Shown here: one piece after another, positions 1 through 10,271 of the stretch | Numbering within the stretch: the stretch's first letter is position 1 | Layout: each line of letters begins with the position of its first letter | Program-made: the position numbers and the translations under genes | Origin: Thermodesulfobacteriota bacterium | GTDB lineage: Bacteria > Desulfobacterota_D > UBA1144 > Nemesobacterales > UBA2774 | Direction of reading: 5' to 3' | Length of the DNA: 64,000 nucleotides | Assembly: GCA_040754335.1 (NCBI GenBank) | Contig: JBFMCV010000001.1 | Coordinates: forward strand, 310,001-374,000 | The notes under the pieces: generated by a model | The model's input: only the letters and a program-made list of their open reading frames with translations | Told to the model about the DNA's origin: nothing | The model's database searches: none

Positions 1-865
1 CCTTGAAGCTCACGGGGTTCCGGAGCAGAGAACGCGCCGCCTGTTTTAGATACGACAGCCTTCCCCGCCGGGCTGACTCGCCGGATTCTATTCTGACATT
101 GAGCGAGCCGTACCTGTCGGCTGTGAGCTTCCCCCCTGTGCCGTATACCTTTATCTTGTCTTCGTCGACGGAATTGATGGAGAAGTAGGATTGGACATGG
201 ATACCGCCTGATGTTTTATATTCGAGCATTGCGTTATCGTCCTCGGTCCTGTGCGAGCTTGTACGGGCGAATATTTGGGTGATCTCGTCATTCAGTATAA
301 ACCGTACCAGATCGATATGGTGCGATGCGAGATCTAGGAGCGCCCCTCCTCCGGTGCTCCTGAGCTTTTTCCATTCCGGGAGCTCCCTGCCCGAAGACGT
401 GAACACCGTCCGCATAAAGACCGCGTCCCCGATCGCCCCCGATCCGATGTCCTCCCTGAGAGCCCGGTATACGGGGTTGAAGCGGAGGTTAAATCCCGCC
501 ATGCCCGCGAGACCGCTCTTTTTCCATGTCCTCACGACTTCCTCGGCCTGGGTGCTGTTAATAGCGATCGGTTTTTCGAGATAGACGTGCTTGCCGTACT
601 CAAACGCAGCCACCGCAGCCTCCGAGTGCAAGTGGTTGGGCAGGCAGATGATGACGGCGCTGATGTCCGGCTCGCGGAGGAGCTCTTTGTAGTCCGTGTG
701 GAGCGCCGCCCCTGGGGCGGACACTCCGGCCTTTTCTCTCCTCACCGCGTCTGGCTCGGCGATCGCGGCCAGTCTCAGGCCGGGAATCTTGCTCAGAAAA
801 TTAAGGTAAACAAGGCTGGCGATACGCCCGCACCCGATGAGACCGACGTTCACGTTCTGCGTCAT
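1..865 (-). CDS. Gfo/Idh/MocA family oxidoreductase (partial, 3' end off window)
   Basis: An open frame starting at the ATG complementary to 863-865 runs off the left edge, so about 288 codons are visible. The N-terminus (MTQNVNVGLIGCGRIASL) carries the GCGRIA Rossmann dinucleotide-binding motif. A YLEKPIA segment near residue 95 matches the EKP motif that places the catalytic lysine in this family. The substitution domain follows, with the histidine-containing segment LASHHIDLVRF. Family members are NAD(P)-dependent dehydrogenases, often acting on sugars or nucleotide sugars; the exact substrate cannot be read. The position next to a glycosyltransferase operon fits a sugar role, by inference. 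The gene has no clear Shine-Dalgarno sequence and lacks its 3' end here. Confidence 0.85.
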   Translation of the reverse strand, partial: MTQNVNVGLIGCGRIASLVYLNFLSKIPGLRLAAIAEPDAVRREKAGVSAPGAALHTDYKELLREPDISAVIICLPNHLHSEAAVAAFEYGKHVYLEKPIAINSTQAEEVVRTWKKSGLAGMAGFNLRFNPVYRALREDIGSGAIGDAVFMRTVFTSSGRELPEWKKLRSTGGGALLDLASHHIDLVRFILNDEITQIFARTSSHRTEDDNAMLEYKTSGGIHVQSYFSINSVDEDKIKVYGTGGKLTADRYGSLNVRIESGESARRGRLSYLKQAARSLLRNPVSFK

Positions 866-1012
866 ATATCTAAGCTGTCCCGATTTAATGAAATTATAAG
901 CGCCGTCATTAATTAAGCCCGCTTTCATTCTACCTTAGTCGGGGTTTATTTTACAGGCTGCGCGGTCGCGGATGACATTGCGGATGCAAATAACAGAGGG
1001 GCAGGGCGGTTA

Positions 1013-1056
1013 TGGAGCCGGCGAGAGGGTTCGAACCTTCGGCCCGCTCATTACGA
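1013..1056 (-). pseudogene. tRNA-Thr(CGT) 3'-half fragment
   Basis: Read on the minus strand, this 44-nt stretch matches the 3' half of the intact tRNA-Thr at 2074-2148, from the anticodon CGT through the T arm, the acceptor 3' strand and an encoded CCA. Identity is 38 of 44, and all six differences are transitions. Homology stops sharply at the anticodon; no D arm or 5' acceptor strand lies upstream. It is in direct orientation with the intact tRNA about 1 kb away, with only a dehydrogenase gene between. The layout resembles an att remnant left by a tRNA-targeting integrase, but a decayed duplicate tRNA is equally possible. Confidence 0.7.
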
Positions 1057-1104
1057 CGGCTGCAATAAGAGAGAATAGATTTATTTCCGGAACCTGTTTG
1101 TAAC

Positions 1105-1899
1105 TCAGTCCACCATGAGCATGCCGCCGTTTACATGTATCGTCTGGCCGGTGATGAATGTGCTCGCATCTGAGGCCAGAAACACAGTCGTCCCGGCCAA
1201 GTCTTCAGCCATGCCCATGCGTCCCATTGGGATGTATTTTACGAATTGGTACAGCAGATCCCGGTGGTCTGCGTGCATAGGCGTGTCGACCGCTCCCGGG
1301 GCGATGTTGTTAACGCGAACTCCTTTGGGAGCCACGTCCTGGGCCGCAGCCCTGGTCAAGGTCTGAAGGGCCGCTTTCGAAGAGCAATAGTCCACACCTC
1401 CGCCGTCCTGGTTGAAAACCGAAGCCCGGGACGACCACGAGCTCCCGATATTAATTACGCTGCCCCGCCCGGCTTTCACCATCTCTTTAAGTACCGCCTT
1501 CATTATCCTCATCGGGGCCCGGACGTTTACCGAGTAAATATCATCCCAGGTCTTGTCGTCGACCGTGAGCATATCGGCGAAAGTCATGAACCCTGCGTTA
1601 TTGATAAGCACGTCGATCCTGCGGCTCATATCCATAGCTGCGTTTACGATCAACTCAGGCGCGTCCTCAGCCGTCACGTCCGTAACGACAGTTCTTGCTT
1701 TGCGCCCTGTCGCGCGTACCGTATCCGCTGCAGCATCGAGATCGCCGGGACTCCTGCCCACAAGGACGAGGTCACTCCCCTGATAAGCGAGCGCCTGGGA
1801 TAAAGTCAGGCCTATCCCCTTTCCTGCGCCTGTAACTATGCTGCAGTAACCGTTCAAGTCGAATAGATTCTTAGAAACGTCCGGTACGGGAAGGGCCAT
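1105..1899 (-). CDS. Short-chain dehydrogenase/reductase (SDR)
   Basis: Classical SDR of 264 residues. The TGAGKGIG nucleotide-binding glycine motif is near residue 23, the NNAG motif near residue 100, and the Ser...Tyr-X-X-X-Lys catalytic set lies in NIGSSWSS and YCSSK. A C-terminal NGG near the end is typical of the family. The product is a cytosolic NAD(P)H-dependent oxidoreductase; sequence alone does not separate 3-oxoacyl-ACP reductase from gluconate/glucose dehydrogenase types. The start is supported by an AAGGGGGA box about 8 nt upstream. The gene stands alone, flanked by a tRNA-Thr fragment and an intact tRNA-Thr, with a 24-bp dyad in its leader. Confidence 0.88.
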   Translation of the reverse strand: MALPVPDVSKNLFDLNGYCSIVTGAGKGIGLTLSQALAYQGSDLVLVGRSPGDLDAAADTVRATGRKARTVVTDVTAEDAPELIVNAAMDMSRRIDVLINNAGFMTFADMLTVDDKTWDDIYSVNVRAPMRIMKAVLKEMVKAGRGSVINIGSSWSSRASVFNQDGGGVDYCSSKAALQTLTRAAAQDVAPKGVRVNNIAPGAVDTPMHADHRDLLYQFVKYIPMGRMGMAEDLAGTTVFLASDASTFITGQTIHVNGGMLMVD

Positions 1900-2073: not shown

Positions 2074-2148
2074 TGGAGCCGACGAGAGGATTTGAACCTC
2101 CGACCTGCTCATTACGAGTGAGCTGCTCTACCACTGAGCTACGTCGGC
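2074..2148 (-). tRNA. tRNA-Thr (anticodon CGT)
   Basis: A full cloverleaf of 75 nt with encoded CCA reads on the minus strand. The acceptor stem is GCCGACG/CGTCGGC, the D stem GCTC/GAGC, the anticodon stem GCTCA/TGAGC, and the loop CTCGTAA gives anticodon CGT at 34-36. The T arm is GGAGG-TTCAAAT-CCTCT. It decodes ACG threonine codons. Confidence 0.97.
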
Positions 2149-2218: not shown

Positions 2219-2869
2219 TTACTTGTCCTCGCATACCCATTGGTAGCTGTAAGAGATATCGTACATGTTGTTGCTCTTGTCCCTCGCGTGTCCGCATACG
2301 ACGTCGGCGTCGAGAGTGAGCTCCCCGCCTTCGTCGGAGATAAAGAATTCATACTGCGGGCTGCACTGGCCGCTGCACCTCTTGTAAAGGTCCTGTCCGT
2401 CGGTGCCCTTGCCTCTCGAAAAGTTCGAGAACCAGTCCTGAACTTCGGACATCGAGCCGAACTTTTTGTCGTATTCGAACGGAGTCTTCTCCGTCTGCTC
2501 CAGTAAGGCCTGGCACTTGGCGTAGTCGGAATAGCTTGTCAGAAACTTCTGGGGCACGGCTTTAAAGACAATGACCGGCTTGGGCACGAGCTCGCATCCA
2601 GCCGGGCACATGTCGGCCGGCTTCTCGGCGTTGGGTATGCCGGCTTGCGCTTTTTGCAGTATGGCGCCGGATTCGTATCTCACGGACCCCGGTTTATTGC
2701 TTTCGTTTGCGAAGAGGGATGCAGTCGCGTGGGTTGTCTCTTCCACGATGTCCTTCTCAATATTCGAACACTTGGTTTCCTCCGCCACGGCGGTGTAAAG
2801 CTGGAAGAGGAAAGTGAAAAGGAGAGCCGGCGGAATGAATAACAGCGTTTTACTTATTCTGTATGTCAT
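2219..2869 (-). CDS. Secreted cysteine-containing hypothetical protein
   Basis: The 216-residue start at 2869 is preferred over an upstream in-frame start because AGGAG sits 9 nt before it. The product opens with a clear signal peptide: basic MTYRISK, a long hydrophobic stretch, then TAVAEE as a likely signal peptidase I site near residue 30. The mature part has several cysteines, including CPAGC, CSGQC and a final WVCEDK, suggesting periplasmic disulphides. I do not recognise a family. It lies downstream of the glycan-type operon but is separated by about 300 nt, so co-transcription is uncertain. Confidence 0.7.
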   Translation of the reverse strand: MTYRISKTLLFIPPALLFTFLFQLYTAVAEETKCSNIEKDIVEETTHATASLFANESNKPGSVRYESGAILQKAQAGIPNAEKPADMCPAGCELVPKPVIVFKAVPQKFLTSYSDYAKCQALLEQTEKTPFEYDKKFGSMSEVQDWFSNFSRGKGTDGQDLYKRCSGQCSPQYEFFISDEGGELTLDADVVCGHARDKSNNMYDISYSYQWVCEDK

Positions 2870-3018
2870 ATAAGTTACTCCTGTGTTCTTATTATTTATG
2901 GCAGCAAGGATAGAAGGTAGCCACTTAATACCCACTAAATATACACCCAAAAAAACTCCATATTAATGTTTATTTTAATTGGGGGAGTCATTGTTTGTGC
3001 CTCGTTATTATCTTTTTC

Positions 3019-3170: not shown

Positions 3171-4352
3171 CTAGCTAACCTGAGTTCTTTTTATTGCGTC
3201 ATTTAGTTTTATTCTCGTAACCCTGAGCGTCTGGAGTATGCGGCTTCTGATGTATGCGTATGAGAGATTGGCGACGATGTCCCATCTTTTCTTCTGCCAG
3301 GCGTAGCTCATAATCTCGTGTGCGAATGAAAAATCGCTCCTGTTCAAGTATCTGCAGCTTCGTATGAGACCGCCGGTCAGAGGACTCTGAAATGTGGAGT
3401 AGCGTTCCAAGACCCCGAGCATGTCGAGCGTCATCATCGTGCGGAGGCACTTCTCGCATTTGGAGCAGTTGAGTGCGCTGTCGTCGAGAGCGCAGACCCT
3501 CAGTTTGTCGCAGGCCTCTTCCCAATAGGCTATCGCCTCCGTTTTTTCTGTCCTGGTGAAGCCGCTGCCGTGGTGTATCACCTGCGTCGCTTCCGTCGAA
3601 AGGAGGTAGTCAATTCCTGGATCGGAGCCCCAGGGCATGAGACTTGTAAAGCTGTGAGACGAGGGTACGTGGAACATAGCGGTCCGTCGTCCTACTGCGT
3701 GCGCGGCGCCGATCAGGGCCGAGCCGTGGAATAAACCCCAGTTCCGCCGCGTGCCGAATTGCTGGCAGTTCGTTCTGCAGCTTATCAGCTTTATCCCGAG
3801 CCTGTCGCACATAGCCGAGTAGGCATCTCTCAGAAGCGGAAAGGATTTAGGGTGTTCCAGCTTTATGTCGAAGCCTTGTACGAATAGAAGGTGCGATATC
3901 TGTACGGATTTCGGAAGCTCGTTTCTCGGCAGATAAGACTTTAAGGTGAAAAAGGAATCCACTCCGCCGGAGAACGCCGACATCACAATATCCCGGCCGT
4001 TTTCAGTGCCCGGGGGGATCAGGGATTCGCACTCTATACGGATCGGTATGAATCTCCAGGGAAACCACATGCAGAAGGGCATTTGATATTCGTTGATCCC
4101 GAGAAGAAGACGCGGGGAGACTTCTCCTCTCACCTCTATATCCTCGCCGTACTGCATGGCCACGAGCAGCATCGTGGAAAGGAAGGGGTCGGCCCTGTCT
4201 GTAACGAGGTCCGACCATTCTTCGGGAAGCTCGAACCAGAGCCTTTCGGGCATGCCGGGGAGAGGGGTTTTGAACTCGATCCTGGCCGATACTGTAAGCA
4301 TCCCGTCTTTAGAAGATATATCCGGATGATTGATTATCATTTTACGAGCCAC
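3171..4352 (-). CDS. PP-loop ATP pyrophosphatase superfamily protein with CxxCxxC metal site
   Basis: The 393-residue protein holds the SGGVDS PP-loop at residues 128-133, the ATP-pyrophosphate binding motif of N-type ATP pyrophosphatases (asparagine synthetase, QueC, GuaA, NadE). A cysteine cluster NCSKCEKC (C296, C299, C302) recalls the zinc site of QueC. The N-terminal 120 residues match no domain I recognise, and there is no glutaminase domain, so it is not a classical asparagine synthetase. Such enzymes adenylate a carboxylate or carbonyl before amide or nitrile formation. It is the last gene of a five-gene operon and its start overlaps the preceding glycosyltransferase by 16 nt. Its substrate is unknown. 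Confidence 0.8.
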   Translation of the reverse strand: MARKMIINHPDISSKDGMLTVSARIEFKTPLPGMPERLWFELPEEWSDLVTDRADPFLSTMLLVAMQYGEDIEVRGEVSPRLLLGINEYQMPFCMWFPWRFIPIRIECESLIPPGTENGRDIVMSAFSGGVDSFFTLKSYLPRNELPKSVQISHLLFVQGFDIKLEHPKSFPLLRDAYSAMCDRLGIKLISCRTNCQQFGTRRNWGLFHGSALIGAAHAVGRRTAMFHVPSSHSFTSLMPWGSDPGIDYLLSTEATQVIHHGSGFTRTEKTEAIAYWEEACDKLRVCALDDSALNCSKCEKCLRTMMTLDMLGVLERYSTFQSPLTGGLIRSCRYLNRSDFSFAHEIMSYAWQKKRWDIVANLSYAYIRSRILQTLRVTRIKLNDAIKRTQVS

Positions 4353-5854
4353 ACTCTCGAAAGCGAGCCGTTAATCATCTGTCTTCTTTCAACAGCCGAT
4401 CTCCTCGCAAAGGTTTTCTTTTCGTGTCTCAATATATAATCGGCTTCCTCTCCGATTTCCTTGTGGTTAATCCTGTAATGGTAAAGCACATAAGGTATGC
4501 GTAAAATGTCGTATTTTTCGGTCACTCTCAGGACGATGTCGTAATCCTCGGCGTAGCTTCCGAGGTTGATTTCGTCAAAACCGTTCATCTCTTCGAGGAC
4601 GGTTCGTCTCCATATGCGGGCTGCGCCGACTCCATCTGTCCTGAGGATGTTATTCCTGTCGTATTCCTCGTGTTTCACGACACGGTATTCCTCCAGCACA
4701 TTGTCGTCGGGCCCAATGCAGTCGTAATAGGAAACGCCGAGTGCGAATCCGGGGTTGGATTCCATATAGTCATACATTATAGAAAGCGCATCGGAGGTGT
4801 AAAGGTCGTCCGAGTCGAGCTGACAAATATACTTTCCCCTTGCGTGCCTTATCCCCGTATTTAGGGCGGCGGCAGTGTTGCACGCGATTTCGCTCCTGAG
4901 GACGGTTATGTCGCCCCTTCCGGTGTACTTCGATGCGGTTTCGAAGCCGCCGTCCGTGGAGCCGTTGTCCACGATTATGATCTCGTATCTTTTCCACTCG
5001 CTCTTTAAAACGCTTTCGATAGTACGCCCAATATATTTTTCACGGTTGTAGAGAGGAATGACGACGCTTATCTCAGGCCCGGCCGGGTCTTTCGATGTGC
5101 CTTCCGTCGCGCGGACGGGCTGGCCGGAGAGAAACGCCCCGCGCCTTTTAAGCGAGGCGTAGCAGGCATCCCGGTACTCGCCTTCTTCCTCCTGACTATA
5201 ATCGAGATATGAGCGGTCCGTATTTGCGGGACCTGTTAACCCCGTGCTCCCGGCGGTATGTAAAACCCTGTAAAGTGGTTCCTCGACCCGGGCTATCTCG
5301 AATCTCTCGAAAACCCTTAACCTGAGGTCATATTCGAAAGAGTATTTCAATCCGCTGTCGTAACAACCAACCGCATCGAACACCTCTCTCCTCATGGCGT
5401 GTACGGATCCTATCAAGGACGCTTCCGAGTAGTCGAAATTATCGGTTTTTGCCGTCACGGCTTCCTCGCCCTCCGCTCTTTCCTCGATGTAATTGCCGTA
5501 TACGTAACCTATCGATTCCTTAGAATACAGATATTTCATATAGCTGACTACCAGGCCCGGAAGGAGAATCACCGGTTGGGTTATCAGGAAAATCGCATCA
5601 CCTTCGGAGAGTGCGATTCCCCTGTTGAGGATGCTGCCTGCGTGCTCCGATTTGAAATCCGATTCAATAAACAACGCCAAGGCGTAATCTCTAGCTAGGG
5701 ATTCTCTCAAAGAGCTATACACTGAGTTGTCAACGAGGCATATTGTCTGATCCTCTTCTCCACACTGAGCGAAAATGCTTTTTAGTGTTTCATCCAATCC
5801 TGCGGATGCGTTTGGGACCGGCAGTATGAAAGTCGCTTTCCTCATCGTGGGCAC
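4337..5854 (-). CDS. Tandem family 2 glycosyltransferase
   Basis: A 505-residue protein with two GT-A type segments. The second, from about residue 260, is a clear GT2 domain: ISVVIPLYNREKYIGRTIES, IIIVDNGSTDGG and the metal/nucleotide-binding CQLDSDDLY. The first 250 residues follow the same layout (ATFILPVPNASAGLDETLKS, TICLVDNS) but are more divergent, so the N-terminal copy may be inactive or have another donor. No membrane spans are evident, so it is probably cytosolic. It may start at the GTG of 5854 or an ATG at 5845; neither has a strong ribosome site. It sits between the nucleotidyltransferase (19-nt gap) and the PP-loop gene (overlap). Confidence 0.88.
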   Translation of the reverse strand: MPTMRKATFILPVPNASAGLDETLKSIFAQCGEEDQTICLVDNSVYSSLRESLARDYALALFIESDFKSEHAGSILNRGIALSEGDAIFLITQPVILLPGLVVSYMKYLYSKESIGYVYGNYIEERAEGEEAVTAKTDNFDYSEASLIGSVHAMRREVFDAVGCYDSGLKYSFEYDLRLRVFERFEIARVEEPLYRVLHTAGSTGLTGPANTDRSYLDYSQEEEGEYRDACYASLKRRGAFLSGQPVRATEGTSKDPAGPEISVVIPLYNREKYIGRTIESVLKSEWKRYEIIIVDNGSTDGGFETASKYTGRGDITVLRSEIACNTAAALNTGIRHARGKYICQLDSDDLYTSDALSIMYDYMESNPGFALGVSYYDCIGPDDNVLEEYRVVKHEEYDRNNILRTDGVGAARIWRRTVLEEMNGFDEINLGSYAEDYDIVLRVTEKYDILRIPYVLYHYRINHKEIGEEADYILRHEKKTFARRSAVERRQMINGSLSRVWLVK

Positions 5855-5873
5855 ACAACCCGAATGTTATTAC

Positions 5874-7304
5874 CTAATTCTCATGATCTGAAGACAGGAA
5901 TTCCATCAAGTTATTCCTGAGCGCCTCCGATAATGCTCTCAAATCGAGGTATCTATCGTATACGCTCTTCTCATCCCGGTTCATTGCATTCTCCTTCACG
6001 ACTGCAGCTTGAAGTGCTTCATAGGCCGGTTCGCGGATGTTAGCGACCTCAAAACCCCGCACAAGCCTCTCCGCATTGTTTCTGAACGATTCGTATCTTC
6101 CATAGTCCTCAAGGTTGCGGGGGCACCTCAGCTGCGGGAATATGGCGTATGTTCGGATCAATAAGCCGTCAGTGCAAAGCTTTCCCGTTAAGGTGAGCGG
6201 TTCCCCGTTCCTGATGTCGATGAACCTCACGCTGTCTTCAGGGAGGGTAAGGCAGAATTTTTCGAATCGATCCCTCGACATGACCCTTAAGCTCCGCTCT
6301 CTTTTCCCACTGTAATACCCTATGAGTTTTTCCGAGGTTTTATAGTACGCGGGGTCATAGAGATAAACGTCATCATACATCATGCGTGAGAACAATATGG
6401 AATGTGTTCGCACTTCGCGCTCGATGGCTTCGGGAACTCCCGTCATGAACTCTTTCGATCTATGCTTCTCGCTTTCCATATTAACTGGAGCCTTCATGGT
6501 TATATCTTCACGCTCCTCCTGCGGGGAATCCGGAAAGCAGATACCCGCCGAAATATCAAAAAAATGAAGGAGTCTGATTAGTATCATCTCATAAAGGGAG
6601 TCGGTTTTATCTGTTTTGCTCATTAGCTTTCTTATCTCATTTCTCAGGCTTACATATGGAGCGGGCGTTTCCTCGTCTTTCCGGGCCTCGCGGAAGCCGT
6701 TTTCTATCGATTGAAAGCTTCTTTCCAGCACTCTCTCCCTGAGCGCGCGCTCTAGTCCGTTATCGGCCTGATAACCTAAATTCTGCTGAATTGCCTCTAG
6801 CCTCCAGTGCGCTTTGTAAAAGTGGTGCAGCCCTTTCACGATTCTCCCGAAAGTGTGGCTGTAGATCATCTCATCCTTTTGAAATAACTTCCGCGGCCGT
6901 CCATAGCTTTTACCGGAAAAAAGATCACCCACGAGAGCCCATTCGCCGGCTGAGTAAATCAGAACGTGAGTCCCCAATTTGTCTTTTCCAAAGGGCGGCA
7001 GCAGATACCTGAGTTTTGTTTCGAGCCTATTAATGAGCCTGTATTCGTCAAGCGCGCTAAGGTCCTTAATCACGATAACAAAATCTATGTCGCTCAACCC
7101 GGGTGCGATGTCTCCGTTCGACATGCTTCCGGCGAGGTATACCGAGCGTATTTCGGTGGTCAGACGGAAAACCAGGGACACGAATCCCGAGCACAATATA
7201 TATGCCCATCTTCCGATTACTCCGCCCCCTTTTGACCGGCTGATTTTAAATAAAAAAGCTTTGAGGCTCATATCACTGAAAATCGAATTGAAGATACGGT
7301 TCAA
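5874..7304 (-). CDS. Nucleotidyltransferase-fold (pol beta-like) protein
   Basis: The 476-residue protein contains LAGSMSNGDIAPGLSDIDFV: the GS motif at residues 59-60 and aspartates D72 and D74 form the signature of the pol beta-like nucleotidyltransferase superfamily. A third carboxylate is not obvious by eye. The rest is long and helix-rich, with no second family I recognise. Nucleotidyltransferases of this kind transfer NMP to small molecules, proteins or RNA; the acceptor is unknown. The gene overlaps the upstream glycosyltransferase by 4 nt (ATGA), showing translational coupling. The length is well above that of minimal MNT toxins or antitoxins, and no HEPN partner is present, which argues against a toxin-antitoxin role. 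Confidence 0.78.
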   Translation of the reverse strand: MNRIFNSIFSDMSLKAFLFKISRSKGGGVIGRWAYILCSGFVSLVFRLTTEIRSVYLAGSMSNGDIAPGLSDIDFVIVIKDLSALDEYRLINRLETKLRYLLPPFGKDKLGTHVLIYSAGEWALVGDLFSGKSYGRPRKLFQKDEMIYSHTFGRIVKGLHHFYKAHWRLEAIQQNLGYQADNGLERALRERVLERSFQSIENGFREARKDEETPAPYVSLRNEIRKLMSKTDKTDSLYEMILIRLLHFFDISAGICFPDSPQEEREDITMKAPVNMESEKHRSKEFMTGVPEAIEREVRTHSILFSRMMYDDVYLYDPAYYKTSEKLIGYYSGKRERSLRVMSRDRFEKFCLTLPEDSVRFIDIRNGEPLTLTGKLCTDGLLIRTYAIFPQLRCPRNLEDYGRYESFRNNAERLVRGFEVANIREPAYEALQAAVVKENAMNRDEKSVYDRYLDLRALSEALRNNLMEFLSSDHEN

Positions 7305-8260
7305 CCGCTAATCCGCGACTGTGTCGGCTCGTATGAAGGTACGGTCTTCCGCGACTCCGAATAAAATCCCGCGTAATAAAAGATAAGGAAAAGAGCGACG
7401 AAAGGGGATAAAAGAAGATATTCGGCTCCTCTGCCTATCGCGCTCGACAGCTTTAACCAGGAATAGTATTTTTGGATTGTCGATTTGGAAATTCCGTATA
7501 TTGTGGGCTTTCTCGTTCTTTCTCCGTCACGGGCCAGCACCGCCCTGTAAAAACTCCCGCCGTACCTGATCCTCTGGTCGAGGTAACCCTTAAGATCTTT
7601 TTCCTCGTGATGATCGATAAACTTCCTTGGGAAGAAATATACCGGTATGCCCCGGGATGCCATCCTCATGCCGAATTCTCCGTCCTCACCCGTAAGAAAA
7701 TACTCGTTGAAATTCCCAAGTGCCTCGAATATCTCTCTCCTGAAAACCGCGCCTCGCGACGGCGGCAGGCTGAAGCTCGTGACAACGTCTTTGTTGAGGT
7801 CCCGTTCGTCCAGCATCTGAATCAATGTCATCTGAAAATATATACTCTGCACGTACCTGAACACGCTCGGACCCGTGGGTCTTATATTATGCGTGATTAT
7901 CATCGCTTCCGGATGGTTCTCGAAAAACTCGATCACTTCCGTCAGATAACTGTCCGGCAGTGTGTAGTCATCGGCGATAAATCCTACGAGCTCTCCCCTC
8001 GACTTGCTAAGGCCGAAGTTCCTTGTCGAGGCGACGCCTTCGTTTGCTTTCTTGAAATATCTGATATCGAGGGAGTTCTTGAATTGATCGATAACGGGGC
8101 GATTGTCTGTTTCAGATCCGTCGTCGACTACTATCACCTCAAACGATGTATTCCCCTTTCTCATTCTGGATATCGAGTCGAGACATCTCCTCAAGGCTTC
8201 TCTGCGGTTGTAAGTTAGAACTACGAGTGATATATCGATTATCTGGTTATTCTTCGTCAT
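7301..8260 (-). CDS. Family 2 glycosyltransferase
   Basis: A 319-residue GT2 enzyme. ISLVVLTYNRREALRRCLDS and VIVVDDGSE form the nucleotide-sugar binding half, FIADDYTLP supplies the DxD-like metal site, and GEDGEFGMRMASRG is the acceptor-side ED motif. A hydrophobic stretch near residues 275-300 (EYLLLSPFVALFLIFYYAGF) may be a membrane anchor, suggesting action on a lipid-linked acceptor at the inner membrane. Three nucleotides separate it from the HprK-like gene upstream, and it overlaps the nucleotidyltransferase gene downstream. The donor and acceptor sugars cannot be deduced. Confidence 0.9.
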   Translation of the reverse strand: MTKNNQIIDISLVVLTYNRREALRRCLDSISRMRKGNTSFEVIVVDDGSETDNRPVIDQFKNSLDIRYFKKANEGVASTRNFGLSKSRGELVGFIADDYTLPDSYLTEVIEFFENHPEAMIITHNIRPTGPSVFRYVQSIYFQMTLIQMLDERDLNKDVVTSFSLPPSRGAVFRREIFEALGNFNEYFLTGEDGEFGMRMASRGIPVYFFPRKFIDHHEEKDLKGYLDQRIRYGGSFYRAVLARDGERTRKPTIYGISKSTIQKYYSWLKLSSAIGRGAEYLLLSPFVALFLIFYYAGFYSESRKTVPSYEPTQSRISG

Positions 8261-8263
8261 AGC

Positions 8264-9262
8264 TCACATCCTAAGATTGACAATAAATTCCTCGAATTTT
8301 CTAAAATTCTTCTCGGTGTCCCTCGATAATAGTATGCGATATCCGGTAGTTTCTCTAGCGAATCTTATAGCCGAGACTGTCCTTTTATAAAAAACAGATA
8401 GAAGCGACAGGGTATCTCTTAGCGGGTTGTTGAAAACAAATTCCATTCCCTGATACAGGCCGAAGCCGATAATAGCCCCCCCGATCAGGCTTTTAAATAT
8501 ACCGTATCCGGAAATCTTTTCGATGCGCGGATCTCCGTTAATCAATCTCTGGGCGACAAAATAAATTTTTTTATCGAGCTCTCTTGTTTCCAGGCGTTTT
8601 TGCCAGTAATCCAAATCGACGAAGAATTTTCGTCCGAACTCCATCCTGTCTACCTCGTAAACGTAACTTCTGGGGATGGATTTGATCTTATTCTCGTCGA
8701 GCGTTCCGACTCGAATAGGAAGAGGCAACACACATCCGGAGCTATTCACCAGCGCTTCGTCGTCCGACATGAGCTTAAAGTTGTCGCTGCCGAGCAAGAC
8801 GAACGCCATTGTTGATTTACCACCGCCTGCGCTCGCAGAAAGTATTACTGCGGTATCTCCGAATGAGAAGGTCAACGCATGAATCCTTAATATTCCGTTC
8901 TTGTCGCAATATTGTCCGAAACGGGATAAAACAAGGAGATAGACGGCCTCCTGAAGAAAATTCGGGTCTCTGCCGTAGACGGTAAATTTCCGCCCGCCGT
9001 TCTCTTCCACGACCACTCCCTTGCCGAAGTAGTCGATTATTTTTATCCCGTCCCCTCTGAACACTATGTTGCGGGGAGTAGAGAAGCTCGCCTTCATCTG
9101 CGGGAAGCTGTCATAAGGAGGCTCGGCCGGCTCGATGAAAATCTCTGCTGCGGGGACTCCGGAGTCCTTGATGAAATATTTGAAGGGCCTGATTACCTGC
9201 GCGGTAAGCTCTTCCGATTGGGAATGTATTTGTATCACAAGACCGTGTATGTCTATTAACAT
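8264..9262 (-). CDS. HprK/PEPCK-like P-loop kinase
   Basis: The 332-residue protein has a Walker A motif SASAGGGKST at residues 142-151 and, shortly after, LMSDDEAL (165-171), which matches the VADD-type motif of HPr kinase/phosphorylase and related small-molecule kinases. The N-terminal 130 residues look like a beta-rich domain seen in HprK-related proteins of biosynthetic clusters. It lacks the full HprK N-domain and there is no PTS gene nearby, so HPr is an unlikely substrate; a metabolite, peptide or glycan is more likely (inference). AAAGGAT lies just upstream of the ATG. It is the first gene of the operon running to 3171. Confidence 0.75.
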   Translation of the reverse strand: MLIDIHGLVIQIHSQSEELTAQVIRPFKYFIKDSGVPAAEIFIEPAEPPYDSFPQMKASFSTPRNIVFRGDGIKIIDYFGKGVVVEENGGRKFTVYGRDPNFLQEAVYLLVLSRFGQYCDKNGILRIHALTFSFGDTAVILSASAGGGKSTMAFVLLGSDNFKLMSDDEALVNSSGCVLPLPIRVGTLDENKIKSIPRSYVYEVDRMEFGRKFFVDLDYWQKRLETRELDKKIYFVAQRLINGDPRIEKISGYGIFKSLIGGAIIGFGLYQGMEFVFNNPLRDTLSLLSVFYKRTVSAIRFARETTGYRILLSRDTEKNFRKFEEFIVNLRM

Positions 9263-9656
9263 GATCCTTTCAAATACGAAAATTCACGCACGGCGTGTGC
9301 GATCGGAGATAGAACCTGATACCCGGGCAAGCTGCGGTTTGATTATATCATAAGTGCTCATGATTACAATTGATTATAGCGCCGGGAAGATTAAGAGAGC
9401 ACCGGCTTCTTTGATGATTGAGAGAGGCGATGAGTTACACTCCGCGGCGTCGTCCGAATACGCTCTTTCTCTCTCGTGCCTCTCGAATGAATCCGGATTT
9501 TGTTTGAATGCTCCTCAGTACAAATAGTCTCCACACCAAATGATATCCGAGAAATCCTGGTTAGTCCCCCCATTCAATCTTGTGTTGTCTAATAACATAT
9601 GATAATTTGTTTCAAGGGGAGAGGGACCCTTTCAATCTATACCTTAGAGAGACCTT
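9263..9656. other. Divergent intergenic region between HprK-like operon and minC
   Basis: The 394-nt region separates leftward and rightward transcription units. It contains one convincing minus-strand promoter (9342-9369). I see no convincing -35/-10 pair for minC; TTGTGT and GATAAT at about 9585-9612 are spaced only 15 nt. Short frames here have no ribosome sites and are not credible genes. Confidence 0.5.
9342..9369 (-). promoter_or_regulatory. Sigma-70-type promoter for the HprK-like/GT/PP-loop operon
   Basis: On the minus strand TTGTAA (9364-9369) is followed after 16 nt by a perfect TATAAT (9342-9347). This would place the transcript start about 70 nt upstream of the HprK-like ATG at 9262. 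Confidence 0.45.
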
Positions 9657-10271
9657 ATGGGAATAACAGTCAAGGGCATGACCGTACCGGCCTTACTGGT
9701 CAAGCTGGATGAAAATATATCCGTGGAAGAGAATATATCCCAGATAAAGGACAAGCTTTCGAGCGATTTTTTTAAGGGCTCCCTCGCCGTGATCGATTAC
9801 GAAGGCACGAAGATTACCGAAGAGAATTTGAAGAAGATCGAGGATGCCGTCAGGAACTCGAACACGAAATTCCTCGGGTATAAGCCCGCTCTCAGGCTCG
9901 AAAAGCCGCAGAAGACGGCTGTCCCGGCGGATAAGCAGGACATCAAGACGCTCAAGCTGATAAACAAGAATATGCGGAGCGGGCAGAACGTGGAGCACGA
10001 GGGGGACGTGCTCGTGATAGGGGACGTGAATCCGGGCTCCTATATCACCGCGTCCGGAAATATCGTTGTCATGGGCACGCTGAGAGGGATCGTCCATGCG
10101 GGGGCGGGGGGGGACGACAGCGCTATAGTGATAGCGCTCAAGCTCAGGCCCCAGCAGCTCCGGATAGCGAGATGGATAACGAGGTCCCCTGACGTATCGG
10201 ACGATCCGGAGTACCCGGAGAAAGCATATGTCAAAAACAACCAGATTTTTATTGAAAAAATTCGAAGCTGA
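9657..10271 (+). CDS. minC: Septum site-determining protein MinC
   Basis: A 204-residue MinC, slightly short for the family. The N-terminal domain (residues 1-100) includes KGSLAVIDYEG. The C-terminal beta-helix domain (from about 108) has the diagnostic GQNVEHEGDVLVIGDVNPGS and GNIVVMGTLRGIVHAG segments, which bind MinD. MinC blocks FtsZ assembly away from midcell. minD follows after a few bases and minE after that, giving the standard minCDE order and a single operon. Confidence 0.96.
   Translation: MGITVKGMTVPALLVKLDENISVEENISQIKDKLSSDFFKGSLAVIDYEGTKITEENLKKIEDAVRNSNTKFLGYKPALRLEKPQKTAVPADKQDIKTLKLINKNMRSGQNVEHEGDVLVIGDVNPGSYITASGNIVVMGTLRGIVHAGAGGDDSAIVIALKLRPQQLRIARWITRSPDVSDDPEYPEKAYVKNNQIFIEKIRS

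Follow-up and report, generated by a model that had tools for sequence, protein, structure and literature searches.

A tightly packed block of five genes adjoining minC in an uncultured genome of Candidatus Dadabacteria type probably constitutes an accessory cassette for the extension and decoration of a glycan, inserted in a surface-polysaccharide locus. We analyzed this block within a window of 64,000 nucleotides (G000:C1:310001-374000, to which all coordinates below refer), which comes from a genome of 3.26 Mb that is 98% complete (G000). The five open reading frames (ORFs) are all transcribed in the same direction on the minus strand, from position 9262 down to 3171, and encode an HprK-like P-loop kinase, a GT2 glycosyltransferase, a Pol-beta/MNT-type nucleotidyltransferase (NTase), a protein with two GT2 domains, and a PP-loop protein of predicted QueC/QatC fold, respectively. 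Three of these, the kinase, the NTase, and the PP-loop enzyme, are modifying enzymes that are not usually found together. An earlier note on this DNA, made from the sequence alone, had pointed out the five adjacent genes and their unfamiliar mix of modifying enzymes and glycosyltransferases, and our analysis supports the existence of such a multi-gene unit. We have good confidence in a glycan-related role of the cassette. Most deserving of specialist attention is the QueC/QatC-fold family of gene 5, members of which turn up repeatedly in cyanobacterial, alphaproteobacterial, and Bacillota glycan loci, as well as in phage-like contigs.

The block at minC and its surface-glycan setting

Measured by the longest ORFs, the spacings between the five genes are 3, -4, 19, and -16 nt, as the earlier note gave them; however, the homologs of genes 3, 4, and 5 begin later (ATG at 7271 for the NTase, 5845 for the double glycosyltransferase, and 4340 for the PP-loop protein), thus the likely spacings are 3, 29, 28, and -4 nt, and the cassette is tightly packed even with these revised starts. 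The suggestion that one promoter drives the block fared less well: a promoter-like site TTGTAA-16-TATAAT, with TG ahead of the second hexamer (9342..9369, minus strand), precedes gene 1, but the density of such matches is not clearly above chance (14 observed vs. 8.8 +/- 3.4 expected). The ratio of nonsynonymous to synonymous substitution rates (dN/dS) is ~0.1-0.22 for genes 1, 2, 4, and 5 and 0.37 for the C-terminus of the NTase, the only part of gene 3 for which it is given since synonymous sites are saturated in the gene as a whole. Where computable, the cassette genes are thus under purifying selection.

In four genomes, which represent two genera, the block begins at minC, and its gene order is kept up to the contig ends. 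In G001, from the same genus, the HprK-GT2-NTase genes adjoin minC and the contig stops within the NTase gene, while G009, from another genus, has HprK-GT2-NTase-GT2GT2 adjoining minC on a contig that stops within gene 4. In G003, the genes are split between two contigs: one has HprK at its edge, beside minC, and the other carries the NTase C-terminus together with the GT2GT2, PP-loop, and secreted-protein genes, an arrangement consistent with the full five-gene order. The secreted protein, conserved and of unknown function, is encoded at the left edge of the cassette (2219..2950, minus strand, outside the cassette). In G006, which represents another genus of the same family, minC directly adjoins the secreted-protein gene and all five cassette genes are missing; farther left, its Gfo/Idh, GT2, and GT4 genes match the locus of the window, with other genes interspersed. 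The right edge of the cassette is delimited by minC together with the final ~78 bp of the DNA upstream of it (9579..10271, plus strand, likewise outside the cassette): the upstream DNA of G000, G001, and G003 is 75-78% identical to that of G006 as far as approximately position 9579, where the homology ends.

Beyond this family, G034 (same order, another family) encodes a full-length HprK homolog of 27-28% identity within 7 kb of two NTases, one of which can be aligned almost end to end and the other around the catalytic motif only. These genes lie beside glycosyltransferases and a membrane protein that by eye is flippase-like, so that only the HprK/NTase pairing survives in this family, again beside a flippase-like gene. 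Among 387 genomes, the NTase family occurs in five (nearly full-length in four; in G003 as a C-terminal fragment cut by the contig end), each of which also encodes the HprK; full-length HprK is present in six, the sixth (G367) having no glycan genes nearby. Wherever the two genes share a contig, including G034, they are ~1 kb apart. A simple co-occurrence count gives P ~1e-10, a value that ignores genome relatedness and on which we do not rely. On balance, we favor the view that the kinase and the NTase work as a pair.

The genes to the left of the cassette, from the secreted-protein gene onward, are encoded on the cassette strand. SDR and Gfo/Idh genes (2..1899, running past the window edge) are followed beyond the window by genes for GT2, GT4, HTTM, and AlkP-like proteins, a Wzx flippase, and GT2, the AlkP-like protein being identified by eye with no Pfam match. 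The flippase (PF13440, E=7e-19) and the glycosyltransferases (PF00535, PF00534) lie within 8.3 kb of the window edge. Because of its Wzx flippase, GT2/GT4, Gfo/Idh, and HTTM genes, the surrounding locus is, by gene content, a surface-glycan locus. The earlier note had proposed to look left of the window for polymerase, flippase, or peptide genes; this search yielded the flippase, but neither a Wzy polymerase nor an initiating transferase was recognized in the locus, where one HTTM-like membrane protein scored just under the cut-off.

Such a setting also suggests a plainer explanation, namely that ordinary O-antigen or capsule genes were gained piecemeal in a variable Wzx-type locus and form no joint pathway. 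Wzx-type O-antigen and capsule loci have flippase, GT2/GT4, Gfo/Idh, and SDR genes in common with the present one, and here the flippase and glycosyltransferases are found in the same strand run as the cassette. Four of the five cassette genes have a GC content of 0.47-0.50 vs. 0.54 in the surroundings. Moreover, the synonymous divergence (pS) of the window from G003 forms a mosaic, being low (0.41-0.60) in the PP-loop gene (0.41), the NTase C-terminus (0.46), and the N-terminal part of gene 4 (0.41-0.60 over the first 180 codons), and high (0.64-0.87) in the HprK gene (0.64) and the remainder of gene 4 with its C-terminal glycosyltransferase domain (0.67-0.87); the value for minC is 0.42. Because of this mosaic, recombination at the locus is a fitting explanation, as expected of coat loci. 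However, the insertion point at minC is common to two genera, the cassette is absent at that very place in G006, and the HprK and NTase genes stay together in the family of G034. As evidence against its reading, the earlier note had named a standard O-antigen cluster that lacks a conserved five-gene core, and half of that description applies: the locus is a flippase-containing glycan locus, yet the block sits at minC in four genomes. To our knowledge, a cassette of kinase, Pol-beta NTase, and QueC-fold PP-loop protein is not a usual component of Wzx-type loci, and we found no description of HprK plus NTase in glycan loci in the open-access literature. Piecemeal gain of unconnected genes thus appears unlikely to us.

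The QueC/QatC-fold protein and its relatives

Gene 5 (3171..4352, minus strand; 393 aa, probable start ATG 4340) encodes a PP-loop protein with an SGGVDS motif and the zinc motif C(x)8CxxCxxC, CALDDSALNCSKCEKC. It has no Pfam or NCBIfam match, and its assignment is supported by an AlphaFold2 structure model (mean pLDDT 89, pTM 0.88). Ranking of Foldseek candidates by VIA-align places QatC first (Z 15.1, rmsd 4.7 over 298 residues, covering model positions 1-373), followed by QueC (Z 12.6, 178 residues) and Cap9 (Z 11.8), with other PP-loop enzymes at 9.5 or less. Foldseek alone returned no PDB match below E 0.001, and a profile search of PDB sequences with the gene 5 family gave weak PP-loop matches only, QatC among them at E=0.4. 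In a profile comparison, the zinc site of gene 5 aligns with that of the genome's own QueC (E=3e-4, at a probability of just 39.5%). An alignment of 15 diverse family members has ten invariant columns, namely G130 and D132 of the P-loop, the R267/K270 pair, and C287, N295, C296, C299, K301, and C302 of the zinc motif, which include all four motif cysteines.

The core fold, SGGxDS, and the C-x8-C-x2-C-x2-C motif are shared with QueC (7-cyano-7-deazaguanine synthase, PF06508). However, the signatures YxQxHxxE, VPxRN, and YPDC that mark canonical QueC (PMC13329287) are missing in gene 5 and in 22 relatives examined, whereas the genome's own QueC, which adjoins a QueE-like gene, has all of them. 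PF06508 gives no match for gene 5 and weak matches for five of 10 family members (best E=0.006). Because these signatures are missing though the fold and the zinc motif are present, gene 5 is, as judged from its model, a protein of the QueC fold that is not a canonical QueC.

The closest structural relative, QatC from the qatABCD anti-phage defence system, belongs to the QueC family, matches gene 5 over nearly the full length of the fold, and likewise combines SGGxDS with a C-terminal cysteine zinc motif. In contrast to QatC, to which it is 12% identical, gene 5 has glycosyltransferase neighbors, no QatA, QatB, or QatD partner was recognized among the five genes, and its zinc motif is spaced C-x8-C-x2-C-x2-C vs. 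C-x19-CGxCxxRR in QatC (PMC13329287). Recent work connects QueC-fold enzymes with the modification of proteins during phage defence (PMC13279940, PMC13329287), and QatC and Cap9 specifically with that of protein N-termini (PMC13279940). The block might then be a Qat/CBASS-like anti-phage defence unit made up of the QatC-like PP-loop protein, the MNT-type NTase, and the kinase. In line with this, QatC gives the best full-length match to the fold of gene 5, the NTase resembles MntA and candidate defence NTases below threshold, and a deazaguanine precursor is likely made because the genome encodes QueC, QueD-like, and QueE-like genes. On the other hand, gene 5 has no PADLOC match, Pfam identifies no TatD nuclease or recognized effector among the five ORFs, and two GT2 genes lie in between at a glycan-locus position, which several gene 5 relatives share. 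Neither was a Qat-type ATPase found by Pfam among the other four ORFs, although a divergent QatB could escape such a search. We regard a defence function as very unlikely.

Relatives of gene 5 were collected from plasmids and from phage-like contigs. They adjoin or lie near glycosyltransferases or PF04230 polysaccharide pyruvyl transferases in two Gloeothece species, Azospirillum, Priestia, Gemmobacter, and the contigs L101 and L102. A relative is adjacent to a PF04230 gene or within two genes of it in L017, L149, L016, L148, L019, L022, L101, and L102, and adjoins GT2-type genes in L099 and L100; in G133 and G149 the loci resemble, by eye, polysaccharide export loci. In Azospirillum, the gene 5 relative and the pyruvyl transferase look like an isolated pair. 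No glycan genes adjoin the relative on a Paracoccus plasmid, and in Nostoc such genes lie 5 kb away from a copy. The published survey of the QueC fold makes no mention of polysaccharides or glycosyltransferases (PMC13329287). Our search of the open-access literature for QueC-like proteins in polysaccharide loci, and for DUF6395, found nothing relevant.

Single-gene QueC/QatC-like relatives are also present in phage-like contigs: L091 (5878-7155), L092 (2057-3238), L095 (5746-6978), L096 (5920-7104), L098 (3703-4989), and L103 (5902-6969), with phage tail or baseplate genes nearby in L091, L092, and L095 according to Pfam. These relatives are possibly morons. Gene 5 had no relative in the phage-record collection; phage-like contigs of IMG/VR do carry them.

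The kinase, the nucleotidyltransferase, and the glycosyltransferases

Gene 1 (8264..9262, minus strand; 332 aa) encodes the HprK-like P-loop kinase with the motifs RIHA, SASAGGGKST (Walker A), and SDDEAL. Its family matches TIGR04352 (E=2.5e-7) and TIGR04355 (E=3e-5) below threshold, and its best NCBIfam score, 30.1 bits against a cut-off of 200, does not reach the threshold of the HPr kinase/HprK-related family. Full-length homologs were identified in G001, G003, G009, G034, and G367; most matches outside the order span the P-loop region only and were not counted as the same family. HprK relatives were not detected in viral contigs, and a search of plasmids gave three weak partial matches, all around the P-loop, and none with the G034 homolog as a query. 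In G367 (L125 3348-4385, G367:C73), no recognized glycan, NTase, or peptide-maturation gene adjoins the full-length homolog. The window's genome has another, distant HprK-like gene (L084 8533-9942, G000:C8), next to which a protein of 207 aa is encoded that has a leader-like start and weakly matches a Hint domain; glycosyltransferase-like genes come after it.

Kinases of this kind bring to mind the maturation of ribosomally synthesized and post-translationally modified peptides (RiPPs), an analogy drawn in the earlier note. The HprK-related kinases of RiPP-type cassettes (TIGR04352, TIGR04355) have the P-loop, the preceding His, and the DD motif in common with gene 1; however, gene 1 scores far under the family cut-offs, and its full-length homologs accompany glycosyltransferases and a Pol-beta NTase or stand alone (G367). 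Elsewhere in the phylum, HprK-like genes adjoin PqqD-like ORFs in G018 and G021, and Asn-synthase-like ORFs are found nearby in G021 and G029 (both by eye, from translations); the G018 and G021 kinases match the gene 1 family around the P-loop only, thus the RiPP-type HprK kinases of this phylum are, by sequence, a separate, PqqD-associated set, and the analogy is not supported. As the earlier note had observed, no precursor, PqqD-like leader binder, or B2 protease was recognized among the five ORFs with Pfam and NCBIfam models, nor was a lasso protease, cyclase, or Asn-synthase, and no systematic small-peptide search was made. That the HprK kinase and the NTase form a peptide maturation cassette with an unannotated precursor is therefore highly improbable.

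Gene 2 (7301..8260, minus strand; 319 aa) is a GT2 glycosyltransferase (PF00535, E=3.4e-26) with an IADDY motif and a C-terminal hydrophobic segment, which is 63 and 57% identical to its homologs in G001 and G009, respectively. The two GT2 proteins of the earlier note are correct, but the second of them, gene 4 (4337..5854, minus strand; 505 aa, probable start ATG 5845), contains two GT2 domains (PF00535 in two stretches, E=3.9e-40). Its C-terminal domain has LDSDD, whereas the N-terminal one lacks DxD and has GDAIFLITQ at the expected site, with ITQ in all three homologs (window, G003, and G009).

Gene 3 (5874..7304, minus strand; 476 aa, probable start ATG 7271) encodes the NTase (PF01909, 23.9 bits vs. 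a cut-off of 21), which has a long C-terminal region. The GS...DID motif, GSMSNGDIAPGLSDID, is kept in the homologs and has the GS...DxD form of MNT/Pol-beta enzymes. The strand after the motif is THVLIY, and conserved acids nearby are E87, E95, D108, and E121. Modeling of the gene 3 structure failed (two sequences, pLDDT 38), and no relative was found in plasmids. PDB-sequence searches with the single proteins of genes 1, 3, and 5 gave nothing usable.

Proposed pathway and flanking features

If the block is read as a cassette that extends and decorates a glycan, sugars would be added to a lipid-linked oligosaccharide by gene 2 and the C-terminal GT2 domain of gene 4, and the HprK-like kinase and the Pol-beta NTase would together phosphorylate and/or nucleotidylate a hydroxyl on a sugar or on a substituent. 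The PP-loop enzyme would use ATP to activate a carboxylate and would couple it with an amine to form an amide, a chemistry to which we give slightly less than even chances for gene 5. One candidate substrate is a ketal-pyruvate carboxylate, since a pyruvyl transferase is a frequent partner of gene 5 relatives elsewhere; none was recognized in the Dadabacterial cassette. The flippase would then export the decorated lipid-linked product for display on the surface. In this way the cassette would alter the coat chemistry, and the sequence mosaicism fits an exchange of coat types. The phosphorylation, nucleotidylation, and amidation of a glycan or glycosylated small molecule put forward in the earlier note were overstated, since we infer these three steps from the enzyme classes.

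Several observations weigh against this reading. All five genes are found on a single contig only in the window's genome, and the PP-loop gene may not be a constant member of the cassette since it was not found in G001 (86% complete) or G009 (59% complete), whose contigs end early. The HprK-like assignment of gene 1 comes from sub-threshold family matches alone, and its subfamily is also found apart from glycan genes, in G367. A third catalytic carboxylate is not evident in the NTase, whose structure model is unusable. Where QueC-fold relatives have a known or proposed function, it is directed at nucleobases or the N-termini of proteins rather than at sugars (PMC13329287, PMC13279940). Finally, all substrates and products of the pathway are inferred, and the organism is uncultured.

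If true, a glycan-locus branch that is widespread and keeps its zinc motif intact would carry QueC-fold chemistry over to carbohydrates, and would likewise give a testable role to the HprK-like kinases and Pol-beta NTases that recur unexplained in gene clusters. A bolder, rather doubtful proposal is that the QueC/QatC-fold family of gene 5 represents an undescribed ligase that puts an amine, amino acid, or nucleobase on a carbohydrate carboxylate, and that here, with a dedicated kinase and NTase, it makes a new class of decorated surface glycan.

To the right of the cassette, minC is followed on the plus strand by minD and a minE-like gene. On the left, the secreted protein (2219-2950) and its relatives (L109 17764-18420, L007 3268-3921) have no Pfam match. 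A tRNA-Thr (CGT) gene (2074-2148, minus strand) is located between the secreted-protein and SDR genes, and a plus-strand ORF that overlaps it (2037-2246) is probably not a gene. The position of the tRNA and SDR genes is held in two relatives by NodZ/fucosyltransferase-like genes to the left of the secreted-protein gene (L007 4193-7740 and L109 16476-17519), which are present in several copies in G003.

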